A DNA stretch of 64,000 nt, taken from the NCBI RefSeq assembly GCF_052324685.1, contig NC_135218.1:12738858-12802857 (forward strand), read 5' to 3'. The translations under genes were made by a program, and so were the position numbers. The stretch comes from Brachyhypopomus gauderio (lineage: Eukaryota > Chordata > Actinopteri > Gymnotiformes > Hypopomidae). The notes under the pieces are model-generated. The model was not told the origin of the DNA, made no database searches, and saw nothing but the letters and a program-made list of their open reading frames with translations. Shown here piece after piece: positions 23,365 to 62,189 of the stretch; position 1 is the stretch's first letter; each line of letters opens with the position of its first letter.

Positions 23365-24289
23365 ATGACAGTAACAGCAGCCTTTCCTCAAAGTCACATC
23401 CACTTGTTTATAGTGGAGGCTCAACGCCTTTTCGCTTCCCTCTGCTGTGTTTTTTCTTTGACCCACGACCCTTTCCAGAGTTTATTCTGTTGGAAAACCT
23501 CACGTGGCGATATCGGGTTCCGTGTGTTCTGGATCTGAAGATGGGAACCCGGCAGCATGGGGATGACGCCTCTGAAGAAAAGAAAGCCAATCAGATCCGT
23601 AAATGCCAGCAGAGCACATCCTCTACGATAGGAGTTCGCCTCTGTGGGATGCAGGTAACACTATATCTGGTGTCATGTTTTACTAAGTAGTAGGCTGCAT
23701 TACTGTGATCAAGAAATATTAATGCTGAAACCTCTTCCTCTACCGGTAGGTGTATCACAGTGTGACGGGGCAGCTGATTTTCATGAATAAGTACCACGGG
23801 CGTAAGCTGAGTCTTGCTGGCTTTAAGGAAGCTCTGTGTCAGTTCTTCAGTGATGGCCGGGTTCTGCGCAGAGAGATTCTCTCTGCCGTCCTCCAGAGGC
23901 TGAAAGAAATGCGTGCGGTTCTGGAGGCCTGCGAGAGCTATCGCTTTTTCTCCTCGTCTCTTCTCGTCATTTACGACGGAGCGCTTCTGCCGGCCCCTAG
24001 ACCCCGCCCCTCTCGGGGAGGAGAGGAAGAGGACGAGGAGGATGACGAAGATGATGATGATGAGGAAGAAGGAGCGTATGGTGGGCGTTCCCAAAGCAGA
24101 GACAGTTCCAGCGGCTCGGGTTCAGGGTCACCACTGGTGGACGTAAAGATGATCGATTTTGCTCACACGACGTGCCGTGATTATGGAGAGGACACTGTGG
24201 TTCACGAAGGTGGAGACAGCGGCTACATCTTTGGCCTTCAGAATCTTATTAGCATTCTGTCCCAGCTTGAGGAGCACAGTAACGATTAA
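20881..24289 (+). CDS. ip6k2: Inositol hexakisphosphate kinase 2 (5 coding exons)
   Basis: The enzyme phosphorylates InsP6 to the pyrophosphate 5-InsP7 using ATP. Coding exons are 20881-21103, 22488-22701, 22916-23064, 23479-23654 and 23750-24289; phases join without a stop to give 433 residues, close to the human protein (about 426). The N-terminus MSPA followed by [17 protein letters not shown] matches IP6K2. The inositol-phosphate kinase signature [16 protein letters not shown] starts at residue 210 (PxxxDxKxG), SSLLVIYDG lies near 322-330, and the metal/ATP motif MIDFAHTT lies near 388-395. An acidic run (about 346-361) and a Ser/Gly linker fill the variable loop before the IDF motif. The start at 20881 is chosen from family agreement and its purine at -3. 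Intron 1 holds a (CT)n tract and intron 3 two CA-type microsatellites. IP6K1 or IP6K3 is less likely because of the MSPA start. Confidence 0.93.
21161..21230 (+). repeat. (CT)n microsatellite in ip6k2 intron 1
   Basis: A CT-rich tract just downstream of the first coding exon, about 60 bases past the splice donor. Confidence 0.95.
22122..22202 (+). repeat. Compound TG/GTGCATGTGCTC repeat in ip6k2 intron 1
   Basis: Tandem gtgcatgtgctc-like 12-base units lie between short TG runs, ending in (TG)n. Confidence 0.85.
23103..23168 (+). repeat. (CGCA)n-type microsatellite in ip6k2 intron 3
   Basis: Alternating cgcacg/cacg units begin about 40 bases after the exon 3 donor. The open frame through it is an artefact of the repeat. 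Confidence 0.9.
23294..23362 (+). repeat. (CA)n microsatellite in ip6k2 intron 3
   Basis: About 34 CA units in the intron preceding the exon that carries the kinase signature. Confidence 0.97.
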
Positions 24290-31295: not shown

Positions 31296-35574
<4,279 letters not shown>

Positions 35575-44925: not shown

Positions 44926-46685
44926 ATGATTAAAAAACGAGATCTATTACAAACGCACTTATTTAAAATAACTTGTCGTGTGTTATTTGGACCACCAAAG
45001 TCCAGGGACCGGATCATCGTCGCGCCTCCAATGTCGAGATTCTTAGTTATGACATGCGGTCGAACTAAACTTCCGGATTTAACCATAACCACTGGGTTGG
45101 GAAACGAGAGCGCTGCGGCCCAGAGATTCAGAAGTTATCCGGGGATGGAACACGTGGAGCTTGCAGATTGGATCCGGGAGAGACGGGCGTTTCGCGAAGG
45201 TCTTGACGGCCTGGGAGATCTGGATAAATGGTTCTACAGCAAACCAGACCTCACGGAAATGGAAATTCTTGTGATGGATCGTGGGAAACAAACACAGAAA
45301 ATGCTACCTGGGGCACTCCCTGACACGACCAAGGTAGATACGATCGAGTAAAGTGGAAATGAGAATGTTGGTTGATTATAAAACCCATAATGAGAATGTC
45401 CACTTCAGGTGGCTCGGCCCATGAACAGAGAGACGTCTTCACAGATGCAAGCAGGGTGTGAGTTTCAACTCGAGGATGCGGAGGTGAGAAGATTCTCCAA
45501 ACAGCTGGCGAATCAGGAGGCGTGATTTAGCTCCGATGACAGTGCGCTGGAGGAGCAGGGAGAATTAGATACAGCGACAGTGCAGGAGGGTTAGACACCC
45601 GGATACAAATGCAGTAGCACTTTAGTAAAAATTAAGATTAGTCTCATATTTGATTTTTGGCCTTTATATCTGACCTGCTGCAGGATGACATACACAGGGG
45701 CGAAATTCTGCCGAACCCAGTTCAGATGGGCAGTACAACCCAGGAAGCCCATTCCTACCCATCCTCTCTGGGAGGTCCCACAGGCGATATCGTGGACGGC
45801 TTCAGAGGACAAAGCCTGGAGGAATATCTAAACTGTGTAGAGCAAAGCAAGCGGCAGGGCCTGTTTATCAGCCAGACTACACTAAAGAGAGGCATGCCTC
45901 CTTCAACATCTACACCATGTGTTACAGATGTCTAAACAAGTACACCAAAACCTTATTATAATCATATACCTCATCCCCTCCTCACACATACACACACACA
46001 CTTTGTTTCTCAGCCTTGCTGTACCCTGGAGATGTGAGTGTGTGTAAGGAGCTGGCATTAAGGCAGGCAGGCTCAAGTGCTCTGCCAGGCCCACAGAACC
46101 GTGGGAGGGGCCGGGAGTCCTACGCCAGTCCTCCAAGATATGGAACAGAGGAGGAGAACATAGACAAACGTAAAGGCCACAAAGACAGGCAAGTGACTGA
46201 CTGACGTGATCGTGCAGCTCCTGCACTGCCTGCATCTGGACAGGTCATAATGCCCTGGACCGCAGTGACCATACATATAAAGTGTTATGATGTGTTCCAC
46301 CCAGTGTAGATGTATCTACCCTAAGATTAAAAGGGACACTATTGCATTTTACACCAATGCAACAGAAGTCAACTATTTATTTCCAGTGCTGTCTTTGAGA
46401 ATGTAATGTCATGTAGCATTCATTACATCTTGAGTTGGGGTGTGTGTGTGTTGCACTAGAAATAAGAGGCAGCCTCTGACTCGACGTGCAGACACATGTG
46501 CCTTCTGGCCAGGACATGATGAGCATGTGCGGGTCTATTATCCTGTTGTGTCTCGCCGTCCTGAGGGTGTGCTGTTTCATCGTGTTCAACACCCTCCAGA
46601 TCCAAGCCCAGGACACTGGCCTGTCAATGAAGCAGGATACTCCACTTCTGGAGACATTAGTGGGCGTAAAGTTTATACCTTATAG
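44926..46685 (+). CDS. Unassigned conserved-looking protein, possibly EFCAB12-like (5 exons)
   Basis: I do not recognise this gene with certainty. Exons 44926-45333, 45409-45483, 45684-45891, 46014-46188 and 46460-46685 join in phase to a 363-residue frame with no internal stop. Visible features are a basic N-terminus, a charged stretch ending GDLDKWFYSKPDLTEME, a Gly/Pro-rich middle, TTLKRALLYPGDVSVC across the exon 3/4 junction, and a C-terminal exon with FWPGHDEHVRVYYPVV and PGHWPVNEAGYSTSGD. No EF-hand loop, signal peptide or membrane segment is evident. Introns 3 and 4 would have GC donors (GCATGC and the consensus GCAAGT). The upstream X-box suggests a ciliated-cell role, and wording plus a 3q21-type neighbourhood make EFCAB12 a candidate. 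An alternative start is the in-frame ATG at 45031. Exon 3 could instead end at a weak GT donor about 55 bases earlier. Confidence 0.55.
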
Positions 46686-47137: not shown

Positions 47138-47546
47138 AGTACATTGTAGTTTCCAAGTACACCCTGGAGATTCGTGTTTTCAATGAGGTTGATGCCTAAT
47201 TAGACCACTAGGTGGTAGTGTTACAGGGCAGAATACTGTGTTCATACATCAAAGAACTACAACATGTAATTGTTGTCACAGATGAGCTGTAAGATATGTT
47301 GTGCTTCTGCGTTATCTATAAGTAAATACTTACTTTCCAACCTTCTATTCAACAGGGTTTTTTATGTATGTGCTGAATTTGATGGCCTGTTAAACAGCTA
47401 TGATTTGCATTCGGAAGTGAGAGTGTGTGTGTGCATGCGTGTGTGTGTGGGTTTGCTGTATTTGTTTACTCAGATGTAGATCATTCACATCTTCAAGTGA
47501 GAACGTCAAATATACAGAGTGCAGTTTGCTGGCGGATGCTAGGAAG

Positions 47547-49197
47547 ATGTCCCGCGTTTTAAGTTCACTCCTGACGACTCGTGAGAACGGGCTGCTGTTC
47601 AACCTGGTGGGCCAGGACTGCAGTGTGAGTCTAGAACACCTCTACCTCCTCTTCCTCCTCTTCTTCCTCTTCTTCCTCTTCTTCCTCTCCTCAGCATGCC
47701 ACTTGCCTAATGGGGGTTTGCTATTCTGTGGTTAATAAAAAGAGCACTTTGCTTCTACTTGATTTCGATTTCGAACTTGTTTTAAGTATTAATTTGCTTA
47801 CAAACAGCTGTGCAGTAAAGGGTACATGACTGGGGTTGAAAATGATTTGTGGATTAATTAAATAAATATTAAATACTACATATATTTTAGATTCATATAC
47901 ATATTGTATATATTATATATTTCATTTGTAAAATCATCTGGTTGTATTTTGTTCTCTGTATACAGTGTAAAGGAATAGAATATATAATTCTGAGAGAGAG
48001 AGAGAAAGAGAGAGAAAGTGTGTGTGTGTTTATTAAGAGGTTGATTTGTTTATGGTAGCTTTGTGTTACACTGTGTTCTCTTCCTTCATAGCTCATTTTA
48101 CTGGCAAAACCCAAACCAGTACATGACTTTACTGCCGTTATGTGTGTGTGTGCAGGTCTCCGCATGTGCGGTGGTTCAGCTGTATCTGGCAACCTCACCT
48201 CGTGAAGGTCAAAAATCTCAATGGGAAATATACAGTTGTGGAGTTTTGTGTCTGGTGCGAGACAGAAAACTAAATTCAACATTTATGCGGCTCTTCAGTG
48301 TCAAGGTTACTCAAAAGCACAAAAATTCATATAAATGCACAGGTTACTGTGTAGACACATGCTTATATTGATATATTGTCCTGATTGTGCATCTGATTTC
48401 CATGCGTGCTATATACCTGTAAATAATGTGTTGAATCATGTTTCTTGCTTAACAACTACATATCACAAAGTATATTCAACATCTAACCAATGAAATTCTT
48501 AAATCAGCGTTATCTTGACAGAATAACTAACTGAATTTAATGCCAGTAATATCTGGTTCTTTCTCTGCAGAGGGCCAAGTTGCTATGGGAACAGGAGCTG
48601 TATACACCTTTTGAGTATTCAACCCCCTGCCACTATTTCCACACCTTCCCCAGTGATGTTAGTAACACACAGCTCCATTATACCCCATCCCCTTTTTCAT
48701 GTTTGTCTGTGTCTCTGTATTTTAAGTATGTGCTGTGTGTGTGTTTCTGCCTTATATGTGTAGGACTGTCGGGCAGGGCTGAACTTTGCTAACGAGGAGG
48801 AGGCTTGCAGGTTCTGCAGCGCTGTACAAAAGTGCATCAGCAGTACTAAAGGTCAGTACCTCTCCCACTAATCCCCTCTCTAAATGAACTCTCCCACTGA
48901 AATTTCTGAAAATATTCCCAGTAAATTCCTCTCCCACTAAACCCCTCCAATTGAACACTACCACTGAAGTCCCATGTCGCTGACCTCCAGCACTGGACTC
49001 CCACTGCTCCTCAGTCCTGCCCAGGCAGGCAAGGATTCAGGCCAGCTGACCTCCTGCTCTGACCAGCCCTGTAACTGTGTCCCATAGTGCCTTGCACACT
49101 GGTTCGAAGTCATAGTCTGGACTCAACCTCACCTTGGTTGCTGAGAGATAAGCTCAACGCATGTCTGACTGCATCGTTAACAGGAAGACGGTGAGGA

Positions 49198-49235
<38 letters not shown>

Positions 49236-49813
49236 AAATGTTCACAGATTTCAGAATGCATTTTTAATGGTTTAAAACCCAACTAGGCGTTGACTACTTA
49301 TTTAGTTCCGTTTGACTGGGGCCAGTTATTTTGTTTTCTTTGTCTCCTTGTCCCATAACCATCCACTGTTGACTTGGAGGTGAACAATCAAACATTCAGA
49401 CCAGGGACCAACGAAGTTATGAGTTCCCCAATGGACCAGCCAGGTGCTTCCCCAAGGACCCTCTCCAACTCTACAGCTGGATCTGTTTCTTTGGCTGAGA
49501 GGAAGGGACCTCTGCCCCCCATACCTTCACACGCAAGCACAGCCTCACCAGCCCCAGTGCACGCTGAGGTGCAGAATCTTACTGCTGGCTTTTCCGTCCC
49601 TCTCCCTCCCCCTTACCCAGCCCCAAGATTAATTGGAAATCTAGCAGGAGTAAAGAAAAGTGCCAGCTTTTCTCCGGTGAGTAAACAGCAAGGCCACCCT
49701 CCATTTTGTAAACATGCACATGATATTTAGGTGTAAACCAAAAGGCCACTTTATTGGACATGATTATCCTTTAACTTTTGGAGCGTCCCTGTATGGAATC
49801 CAGACACATTGCA

Positions 49814-49896
<83 letters not shown>

Positions 49897-50559
49897 TGCA
49901 GCATATAATCCACCTACATCCAGCATATAATCCAAAAAGGGGGCCATGTAGATGTAATCAACTCTGTGATCAAAGGGGTCCAACTAACATCCAGGAGTCC
50001 GACTAATGTCCATACACACCACTGGTCACTCCAGATAGGTGATGACCAGCTGATGACCAGTTGGAGTGCCATTGCTGTCTAAGGAACACAGAAAGGCCAT
50101 TAGGCCAAAGAGCACATTAACTGGATCACTGAGCAGTGGAACAAACATCATCTGGACAAATGAATCCAGATTTCTGTTCCTCTATGCAGATGGGAGGGTC
50201 AGAGTTTAGAACAAGCAGCATGGATGAATTGTGTCAGGTGTCAACAGGCTGGTGAAAGTAATAATGTACTGTATATCAACATGTCAGTACCTCTAATTTG
50301 CTATCCTGTTTGCTTAGATTCAACACCTAGTGGAATCTGTGCCACAAATTGTGGTTCTGAGGGGAACCCAGTGTGCTACTAGATGGGTGTCTCTATTAAA
50401 GTGGCCATTCAGTGAAGGTATAAAGCACATGAAGTTTTGTATGGGTTTGACTATTTGCTAATGTGAGTTTAATCTTATTGTAGGGAGAAAATTATTCTTA
50501 TGCTGCAATGAAGACTCAAAGAAGCCTGCATTCTACAGGTTCATCTGCTTTCTGACCCG

Positions 50560-50612
<53 letters not shown>

Positions 50613-50714
50613 CTACTGACACTGTTCTGTTTTGATTCATGTTTCATACCTTAAGTTTTTTGTTTTCACTGTTTTTTTTCTGTTTTTGCAGCTAACAAAG
50701 GAACAAAGAGTTAG
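47547..50714 (+). CDS. WASP-family WH1-domain protein lacking CRIB and VCA (8 exons)
   Basis: Exons 47547-47624, 48156-48305, 48571-48657, 48764-48851, 49088-49190, 49400-49676, 50484-50538 and 50692-50714 join in phase to 286 residues ending NKGTKS. Residues about 5-135 form a WH1 (EVH1) domain of the WASP/N-WASP type: AVVQLY, KLLWEQELY (79-87), YFHTF (98-102) and DCRAGLNFANEEEA (106-119). This domain in WASP binds WIP. A proline-rich tail follows, with KGPLPPIP (204-211) and VPLPPPYPAP (about 235-244), plausible SH3 or profilin ligands. No CRIB, WH2 or acidic Arp2/3-binding segment is seen before the stop, whereas WASP proteins run to about 500 residues. All introns have GT-AG ends. The first four exons are confident; exons 5, 7 and 8 rest on phase and splice sites only. 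It could be a diverged WASP duplicate acting without Arp2/3 activation, or the 3' model may be incomplete. Confidence 0.7.
49200..49232 (+). repeat. (CA)n microsatellite in intron 5 of the WH1 gene
   Basis: The CA run starts about ten bases after the proposed exon 5 donor. Confidence 0.93.
49735..50415 (+). mobile_element. Tc1-like DNA transposon relic
   Basis: Inverted ends are present: ggccacttta at 49744-49753 and its exact reverse complement at 50397-50406, matching the 'ggccactttatta' ends of a common teleost Tc1/mariner family. On the + strand, 50060-50250 resembles its transposase, including TNESRFLFLYADGRVRV (from 50156), where the family has TDESRF; the second catalytic Asp reads Asn. 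About 0.7 kb remains, so most of the transposase is deleted. It lies in intron 6 of the WH1 gene and contains a (TA)n expansion at 49816-49893. Confidence 0.85.
49816..49893. repeat. (TA)n microsatellite inside the Tc1 relic
   Basis: About 39 TA units. Flanking sequence (gcagcatataatcca) recurs on the right side, consistent with local duplication. Confidence 0.97.
50563..50611 (+). repeat. (CA)n microsatellite in intron 7 of the WH1 gene
   Basis: The CA run begins about 25 bases after the exon 7 donor. Confidence 0.95.
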
Positions 50715-53700
50715 GAACATGAGAGGAACGTGTTTCAAGACCAGCATGCTGTTTTTCTACCATGGCACTGCCATTATAGCTTAATCACTCTTGCAAGAAA
50801 CCCTGAAACAGGAAGGACACTTCTCTCGCTTTGAATGCTGGGTCATTGTGTTTATGAATCAGCTGTGATTTAACATTTACTGGGGCACACTAGTGAAAAT
50901 AAGACCTAAAGATCTCTCAAAGCAACTGTGTATTTTACTTCAGGCTGACTAGATGTGAGAATAGCGGGTAAATATTGTAAAAAGGATCATAGAAGTACTA
51001 CACGCGTGTGAATGAGTTGGTATGTGTTACGTTGGTTTGTGTAAAGTCTTGGTACTTACTAGTCTAGCTTACACTGATTACCATGCGACGTTCAAAAACA
51101 TAATCTGAAATAACCATTCCTTTTACTTCTGCGTCACCTACTTACAGAGGCCGAAGTTAATCACTTTGCATTTATCCGCATTCCGTGTGTGTGTGTGTGT
51201 GTGTGAAGCCCGCCCTTGCTGCGCGTTTTTACTTAAATCGGCGTCTTTGATTCCTAGAAAATGATACACATACACAGTGGATCGGTTGCGTTTTCACCCA
51301 GTGACACTCAACCAAGCACTGGCGCGCGCGTGCACACACCCACTGACATGATCCATATGCACGCGCTACCTGGGCACGCTGGAGATAAGCAACGCTCCAT
51401 AAACCCACTGACGATGAGAGGTTTGGTGCCCTCCTTGATCGCGCATAACCGGAACAGCACAGGTAAGATAACCCCCCCCCCCCTCCCCCGTGAAACAACT
51501 CTGCGTAGCTTTTTGGATCAGCTGTCTTCTATCGGCCAAGCGAATTTTGCAAGAAGGCTGTACGGCTCGGGTAACGCTGGCGGAGGAAGTAAACAAGCTG
51601 CTTGGGCACACGATGGGAAGCTGATCGAGCTTACAGTTCACTCCACTTTACTGCTGGATAGCACGCTCACGTATTTTGACAATAACCGTGTGAACTACTT
51701 CGCACTTACTTAAATCACTGGGCATTTTAAAACGGGAGCCCAATTAGTTGGACCGTAGTGAGTACTGACGCCAACTGCGCCCTGCGTCAGCTGCACGTTC
51801 AAACATAACTGCAAATAGTAGAACTGTCATGCAAATAAATGCATTATTTCATAAACGAAATGCTTTGCACTCAGGATGGTGATCGCATTCAAACGTACGC
51901 TGCCTGTGTTCACTTAGATAGCAGTTTGATCGCCGAGCATCCACCGGTGATGTCGTGTAGACTTAAAGTAGGTTATACATTCCTGAGGTCCGGAAGTTGA
52001 TGAAACATGTTTTGGCGAAAATGAAGCATTTCTATATATGTTTAACTGGCCAGCTTTCACATTGCTGTAGAGAACGTCGATGCGTTCATATGCGTGGTAA
52101 ATCGTTTGATGCAATGAGTGTGTAAGCTGTGCTCGGTGGCTTAGAGGTTTAAACTGCAGTATTTGTTGGCAACTGAGAGAACAGAGCAGATTGATATATG
52201 TACAAAATGTGTGTGCGCGCGCGCGTGTGTACGTTGGTGGTTTTGCTTATAGTGAATACATTGTAATTGCATCGTCATTTAATATGGAGAGTGTTTCATA
52301 TATGGGTTATTTTACACTTTCTCTTCCCGTTCTCTAGTCAGGCTTCTGCATTCCCCACCTCTGTGTCTGTCTCGCGCTTCAGCCCTCCCTCGCTTGAGAA
52401 TCTGGGTGAAAGTTCATCTTCATCCCTCCAATACTATTTTAGGCTTTGTCTTGCTCTGTTTATACTGTCTTCCTGTGTGTCTGCATGTGTTCATGTGTTA
52501 GTATGTGAATCGTTTTTTTTTCTCGTTTGTATACAATTAACAGTAGACAAAATACTTTGTTTGCTGCACACATATCTCGCTGTACAAACAGAATATTTAA
52601 AGATGCTGAGTATTATGCAATCAGAAGAGCGTGCTGAAAAGTAATATGTGTAATGACATTCATGATTCAATTAAACACTGCAGGACTTAATTGTTTGGTG
52701 ATGGTAGTCACTTTGTGCTGAACAGACAACATTGAACTATCGTTTCATCAATCTTTAGCTTTGAAGTTATGCAAGGTATGTAGCCTAATAGCTAGCTACA
52801 AATGTGATATTTTGACCTCTCTACTTTTGACTACAGTAGTACTTTGCTTTTGGGACTCCAAATATTCACAAAATAATGCACTACACAATGAATGTGACAT
52901 GAATTCACATGGAAAGCCCTTTCTCTCTCTCACTCTATCATTATCTGATATTCATATTTATTAATTCATTCCCTGTCATTGATACACACATGCCTTGGCT
53001 TTATTTTCTCCACTTTACAACGTAGCTAATGGGCGTACAGGTGCTGTGTATGACTTGCTGAGCTGTTAGACGAGATGCCAAGGTCTTGTGCATTTTGTCT
53101 AAATGTTTCCTGATCTCATATAAGTCTCACTCATCGGTCAGTACATGGAACTGCATTGCAGTGTTATCCCTAAATTTTGAATAGTCTAGTTCATGAAATG
53201 GGAAAAAAAACAGCCAAATATCCACAGAACAATCTTCACCCCAAACTAGAGGTTGTGCTGTGAGACCAAGTTCAACTGTAGAATGGTCAAGTCCTCCATA
53301 TACTTTAGGTATCGTGACAAGACACTGACTCCATTCCAAATGCAGGATGGACTCTGTAGCAATACTGGTTCCACCACTCATAATGTCCTCTCACAGGCTC
53401 TGTGTGCAGCTTGTCTACGTGTGGCTGAAGTAACTGCCAGAAATGCAAGTCTGATTTCCCCTTGAGACGTTCTAGTGATGTCAATATGAACAACAAATCC
53501 AACAGTGGACTATGAAAGGGACGGTGGGGATTGTCAGCTAATTTGTTTTTGCATTGGTTTCTGAATTACAATTATGATGTATGATATGTATTATGTATAG
53601 TATGATATAAAGTCATAGCATTCCAAAACAGCAATAAAAGGATTAAATGGGTTAAACTTGTTTGCAGACACAGGTAATCTTTAAAGAATTTTTGGACTTG

Positions 53701-56838: not shown

Positions 56839-62189
<5,351 letters not shown>

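Follow-up and report, generated by a model that had tools for sequence, protein, structure and literature searches.

What becomes of a gene of the WASP family when only its WH1 domain and a proline-rich tail can be recognised, and what might its product then do? The question is raised by a plus-strand locus of Brachyhypopomus gauderio, here called the window gene, which lies at positions 47547..50714 of a 64,000-nucleotide stretch (the window, C8:12738858-12802857) of a 797 Mb genome; positions are window coordinates unless contig C4, C5 or C8 is stated. We consider it a real, fast-evolving WASP-family paralog whose product would serve as a WIP-binding, Arp2/3-inactive adaptor or competitor, and place the probability of this reading at roughly one half. 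WASP has WIP as its chaperone, and the majority of WAS mutations fall within the EVH1 (WH1) domain and weaken binding to WIP (PMC3884764). If our reading is true, this natural gene, with its WIP interface kept and its actin module gone, would represent a WIP competitor or adaptor made by evolution, and Arp2/3-independent functions of WH1 could be studied apart in a fish.

The four exons in which the initial annotation had seen a WASP-type WH1 domain bear out that assignment. When joined, they encode a complete domain from 47547-48851 (Pfam PF00568, E 4.4e-26, profile 2-110 of 111), which matches human WAS best among solved structures (9s9x, E 1.7e-34, residues 4-131), followed by human N-WASP (6uhc, E 6.2e-31), and is 47% identical to human WASP and 48% to human N-WASP. 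All introns are GT..AG, the frame is kept throughout and the exons end in phases 0, 0, 0 and 1, identical to those of WASP1, one of the genome's own long WASP genes (read by eye); the WH1 exons of human WAS likewise have phases 0/0/0/1. The exons are listed below, with tblastn results for human WASP and N-WASP queries, and with matrix-scored splice-site ranks among 305 donor GT sites and 260 acceptors (donor sites within 46.7-51.2 kb).

47547..47624, plus strand: exon 1, holding the start codon and the N-terminal helix of WH1, ends in phase 0; within the human WAS 4-131 alignment, tblastn alone being weak (E 0.12); donor rank 9/305.
48156..48305, plus strand: exon 2 of WH1, phase 0 to 0; tblastn with human WASP E 2.4e-5, with N-WASP E 3.8e-5; acceptor rank 24/260, donor rank 30/305.
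48571..48657, plus strand: exon 3 of WH1, containing KLLWEQELY, phase 0 to 0; found by tblastn; acceptor rank 1/260, donor rank 41/305.
48764..48851, plus strand: exon 4 of WH1, DCRAGLNFANEEEA, ends in phase 1; found by tblastn; acceptor rank 22/260, donor rank 3/305.

By eye, a further ATG lies at 47536, 11 bases 5' of the start, and opens a short out-of-frame upstream open reading frame that overlaps the start codon.

The positions that this domain has kept are those through which WASP meets WIP. All seven WIP-contact residues named in PMC7407642 (Y54, W64, F114, T116, V50, V51 and E100 in human WASP numbering) are kept, as are all five members of the groove-packing unit W97/Y107/H115/F128/A134 given there, and at this residue level alone the earlier suggestion of WIP binding is supported. 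Of the severe-disease positions from the same source, 9 of 10 that are buried and 6 of 9 on the surface remain unchanged; contact, packing and severe-disease positions together are kept at 22/26, against 60/128 overall (hypergeometric p 1.3e-5). Columns that are invariant in five other WH1 domains are kept at 34 of 42, and 26 of the 86 variable columns match human WASP. Selection for WIP binding would produce such a pattern; disease positions are conserved in general, so the test is better evidence of constraint on the WH1 fold and groove than of WIP itself as the ligand.

Beyond the WH1 domain, the initial annotation had claimed that the gene possesses no CRIB, WH2 or acidic Arp2/3 module, and within the window and the next 10 kb this is borne out. 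We searched this range, covering approximately 25 kb 3' of exon 4, together with the paralogs in the same genome, with tblastn, the sole method for the A region, and with home-made profiles for CRIB, WAID, WH2 and C that combined human sequences with those of this genome. Downstream of the gene, through the rest of the window and the 10 kb beyond it, no convincing CRIB, WAID, WH2, C or A exon was found and the highest profile score listed was 7.7 bits, whereas all five modules were detected in the positive controls, namely two own WASP genes and one N-WASP. The best that tblastn gave downstream was an acidic stretch of 24 residues at 60238-60309, with E 0.81, which we took for chance. Upstream of the window gene, an 11-residue match to the N-terminal CRIB profile (32724-32756, 14.8 bits, E 0.0067) was also taken for chance. 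A genome-wide search with PF00786 (CRIB) gave 20 matches, none of them on C8; it also missed known CRIBs of WASP and N-WASP on C4 and C5 and is not counted as evidence.

These searches bear on a further explanation, that the gene model is incomplete and that diverged or distant CRIB/VCA exons make this an ordinary WASP, or one of the type of fish S-WASP, which is grouped with WASP by homology of WH1 and CRIB/WAID in PMC3298513. The search range, bounded as given above and read on DNA alone, and the weak acidic piece leave some room for this. It is nonetheless very unlikely: the WAID exon scores 105-119 bits in the three controls, compared with at most 7.7 bits for any listed profile match downstream, and the control genes span approximately 4.1, 5.7 and 16.5 kb from WH1 start to acidic end, against the approximately 25 kb searched. 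Furthermore, the acceptors that can be joined to the region's strongest donor open onto frames that reach a stop by 50714 or 50784.

What follows exon 4 is an open frame at 49359-49727, encoding AERKGPLPPIP...PLPPPYPAPR. In own WASP1 and WASP2, the WH1 exons are followed by small exons running from phase 1 to 2 and then from 2 to 1 (read by eye). The candidate features of the tail are as follows.

49088..49190 or 49184..49190, plus strand: doubtful exon 5, in a long form or as a 7-nt microexon, or skipped; donor rank 2/305; acceptor rank 51 (long) or 25 (micro) of 260; all three in phase.
49400..49676, plus strand: proline-rich exon in the place of WASP exons 6-7, starting at 49400 or 49477; open frame; donor 49677 of rank 1/305; linker likeness.
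50484..50538, plus strand: possible exon 8, GENYSYAAMKTQRSLHST; in phase; acceptor rank 23/260, donor rank 83/305; without codon-usage support.
50692..50714, plus strand: possible last coding exon with stop; acceptor rank 3/260; with exon 8 skipped, the stop ends at 50784.
51834..51839, plus strand: AATAAA, the only AATAAA/ATTAAA within 50601-52400; it lies in a stretch of high CpG observed/expected ratio, so that its link to the window gene is unsure.

The CpG observed/expected ratio reaches 0.8-1.0 at 51001-52500, compared with 0-0.5 in the preceding 5 kb, a promoter-like feature just 3' of the window gene; no coding exon was recognised in 51001-52500.

Five spliced models were computed, of 226, 231, 254, 259 and 286 residues, and retention of the intron after 49676 yields a sixth, of 218 residues. 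A CRIB or VCA part is recognisable in none of the six, and in a Pfam search of the 254-residue model WH1 was the sole match at E up to 10. The initial annotation had described an in-phase proline-rich tail ending at residue 286; the exact tail and its length are not confirmed, the 286-residue form being one of five spliced models, not the best spliced of them, and dependent on weak acceptors (49088, rank 51/260; 49400, rank 159/260). Splicing exon 4 directly to 49477 is in phase and gives 226 amino acids with a better acceptor, since 49477 scores 6.6, 49088 scores 3.2 and 49400 scores -1.3. The proline-rich part from 49477 resembles the linker of human WASP, an equally good alignment arising in 1 of 1000 shuffles.

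Taken together, these features suggest how the protein might act. Its WH1 domain would bind WIP-family proteins, and the proline-rich tail would perhaps bind SH3 proteins and perhaps WW proteins; there is no recognisable part for Cdc42 binding, autoinhibition, actin binding or Arp2/3 activation, which would leave the protein Arp2/3-inactive. It would then limit or redirect the WIP available to full-length WASP and N-WASP. There is a precedent for an EVH1-dependent, Arp2/3-independent role in WASp and NFAT, given in PMC3884764. The same precedent invites the thought that the protein is an Arp2/3-independent WH1 adaptor that binds WIP, or another WH1 ligand, for signalling and offers WASP no practical competition. 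The retained WH1 contacts would suit such an adaptor, as would tail stretches picked out by eye, RKGPLPP (class I SH3-like), PPPY (PPxY-like) and YAAM (YxxM-like); motifs as short as these arise by chance, however, and the YAAM exon is doubtful. We think this version improbable, if still a serious possibility.

The genome has, besides the short window gene, at least three long WASP-family genes with all modules and a fourth that was partly read. The long WASP genes lie on C4 at 29.89 and 30.71 Mb and an N-WASP on C5 at 33.46 Mb, each with all modules, and a second N-WASP on the minus strand of the same contig as the first (C5:9.88 Mb) has WAID, two WH2, C and A. The own-genome search gave 14 matches, and a second copy of the short gene was not one of them. 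Two of the long genes have peculiarities of their own. In the C5 N-WASP, WH1 exon 3 (C5:33466077-33466169) has diverged, with W97, Y107 and H115 replaced by F, S and I (3 of the 5 groove-packing residues), and its CRIB, WAID and VCA look normal. In exon 7 (linker) of own WASP1, the conserved parts MATVDIQNPD... and ...LMGKGKKDKKG stand in different reading frames, a sign of a broken frame, of an assembly error or of a splice that escaped recognition.

A tree of the WH1 domains of WASP, N-WASP and the window gene (7 rows, 130 columns), as proposed in the initial annotation, brought out the divergence of the window gene, whose branch, at 1.07 changes per column, is the longest among the vertebrate rows (the five others have 0.07-0.37); it did not resolve the placement. 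No inner branch is starred, and the test does not reject a grouping of the window gene with all WASPs (p-AU 0.342), with both N-WASPs (0.34), with just the N-WASP of this genome (0.0904) or with just human WASP (0.279). The claim of a diverged WASP paralog without an Arp2/3 module finds support, within the searched stretch, from the WH1 domain, the module searches and the tree.

Several observations weigh against the reading of a real, WIP-binding paralog. Four severe-disease positions from PMC7407642 are changed, three of nine on the surface (L39, T111 and R138) and one of ten buried (F74). The ubiquitylation sites of WASp that this source names, K76 and K81, have become R and N, and the three long paralogs of this genome carry R at position 81; regulation may accordingly differ from that of WASp. 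Grouping of the window gene with the two fish WASPs, at p-AU 0.181, is not rejected. An exon-wise genome search with PF00568 returned 26 matches and missed the window gene itself, so that other small WH1 genes or exons may escape such searches. Likeness of the proline-rich part to the own WASP1 linker is marginal (37/1000 shuffles as good), and for the linkers of own WASP2 (616/1000) and human N-WASP (1000/1000) it is at chance level. Finally, tail splice sites are weak, notably the exon 8 donor and the 49400 acceptor, and the tail exons lack a codon-usage signal.

The last two points, with the long branch, are also what would be expected of a decaying pseudogene, a WASP duplicate that has lost its 3' half and is drifting. 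Such decay is unlikely. No stop interrupts the four WH1 exons, which are in phase and separated by GT..AG introns, and the changes spare the contact and disease positions in the proportions given above, which drift would not do. Nor is the codon-usage silence evidence of decay. A scoring scheme trained on 2817 codons, drawn from exons of the paralogs, RUVBL1, the SUV39H1-like genes and GATA genes, gave a negative value for the certain WH1 exon 2 too and is hence uninformative on the tail, where the score of the proline-rich exon was equalled by 290 of 655 stop-free random pieces.

Seen as a functional paralog, the window gene departs from WASP (WAS) and N-WASP (WASL) in lacking any recognised basic region, CRIB, WAID, long polyproline, WH2, C or A, while sharing with them the WH1 domain, the exon phases, the WIP-contact residues and a proline-rich stretch like the human WASP linker. 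Short WASPs have been described before. In PMC3298513, Kollmar et al. (2012) name short fish WASPs S-WASP, proteins without basic region, C and A that are expected neither to bind nor to activate Arp2/3, and view them as WASP duplicates with domain loss. Compared by this published description, fish S-WASP and the window gene are both extra fish WASP homologs with a WH1 domain, a short proline-rich region and no basic, C or A region; fish S-WASP has CRIB/WAID homology, whereas the window gene gave no CRIB/WAID match, and for this reason we call it a variant rather than a confirmed member. It looks more reduced than the reported fish S-WASP, and the two may be orthologs with further loss in the window gene. 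Basidiomycete S-WASP, as described in the same text, has likewise lost the VCA module after a WASP duplication; it ends shortly behind WAID with no proline-rich region, the reverse of the window gene. Our literature searches turned up no experimental work on such a fish protein. The idea of a short fish WASP has thus been known since 2012; the synteny of the window gene is new.

That synteny offers a testable account of a possible source of short fish WASPs, and makes the locus a candidate source for the S-WASP duplicate. A SEC61-alpha gene, the sole set of SecY-family matches in the genome, ends 12 kb upstream of the window gene, and also on C8 lie a GATA2-like gene at approximately 0.39 Mb and RUVBL1 at approximately 0.40 Mb. 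Seven of the eight RUVBL1 pieces are 80-94% identical to their human counterpart and one gapped piece 66%, against 36-56% to RUVBL2. In human 3q21.3, SEC61A1, RUVBL1 and GATA2 are neighbours. The two C4 WASP genes lie approximately 0.8 Mb apart within C4:29.82-30.77 Mb, one at approximately 68 kb and the other at approximately 58 kb from a SUV39H1-like gene of its own (identity to human SUV39H1 62 and 63%), and form two blocks of opposite orientation. A GATA gene 1.4 Mb from WASP2 matches GATA1 best in two zinc-finger exons, and SUV39H1, WAS and GATA1 are neighbours in human Xp11.23. The two C4 genes are therefore likely co-orthologs of human WAS. With these on C4 and the window gene in another block, the synteny suggests a third, vertebrate-old WASP copy, not a teleost twin of WASP.

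Some of the gene names that carry this placement are soft, and count against it. The choice of SEC61A1 over SEC61A2 for the SEC61-alpha neighbour is provisional, as is that of SUV39H1 over SUV39H2 for the SUV39H1-like genes. Across its three exons, the C8 GATA gene reaches 109, 94 and 73 bits against GATA2 and 110, 90 and 66 against GATA3, a small margin, and in the C-terminal exon of the C4 GATA gene GATA2/3 score above GATA1. An origin in the two rounds of vertebrate genome duplication (2R) is the simplest reading of the synteny; transposition of a WASP copy is a possible alternative. A bolder proposal, which we hold to be possible and still rather doubtful, is that a third vertebrate WASP gene arose as a 2R ohnolog in the GATA2-RUVBL1-SEC61A1 paralogon, was lost in tetrapods and was kept by some fish, cut down to WH1 and a short proline-rich tail, so that a nucleation factor became a protein devoted to binding WIP in competition with WASP and N-WASP.

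Two other loci lie upstream of the window gene. Between it and the SEC61-alpha gene, 44926-46685 holds a gene, SRDRIIVAPPMSRFLVMTCGRTKLPDLTITTG..., for which Pfam gave only a sub-threshold match to CFAP91 (E 0.19). Further upstream, 23750-24286 encodes an inositol polyphosphate kinase exon (Pfam IPK, E 2.4e-33), by eye of the IP6K type.
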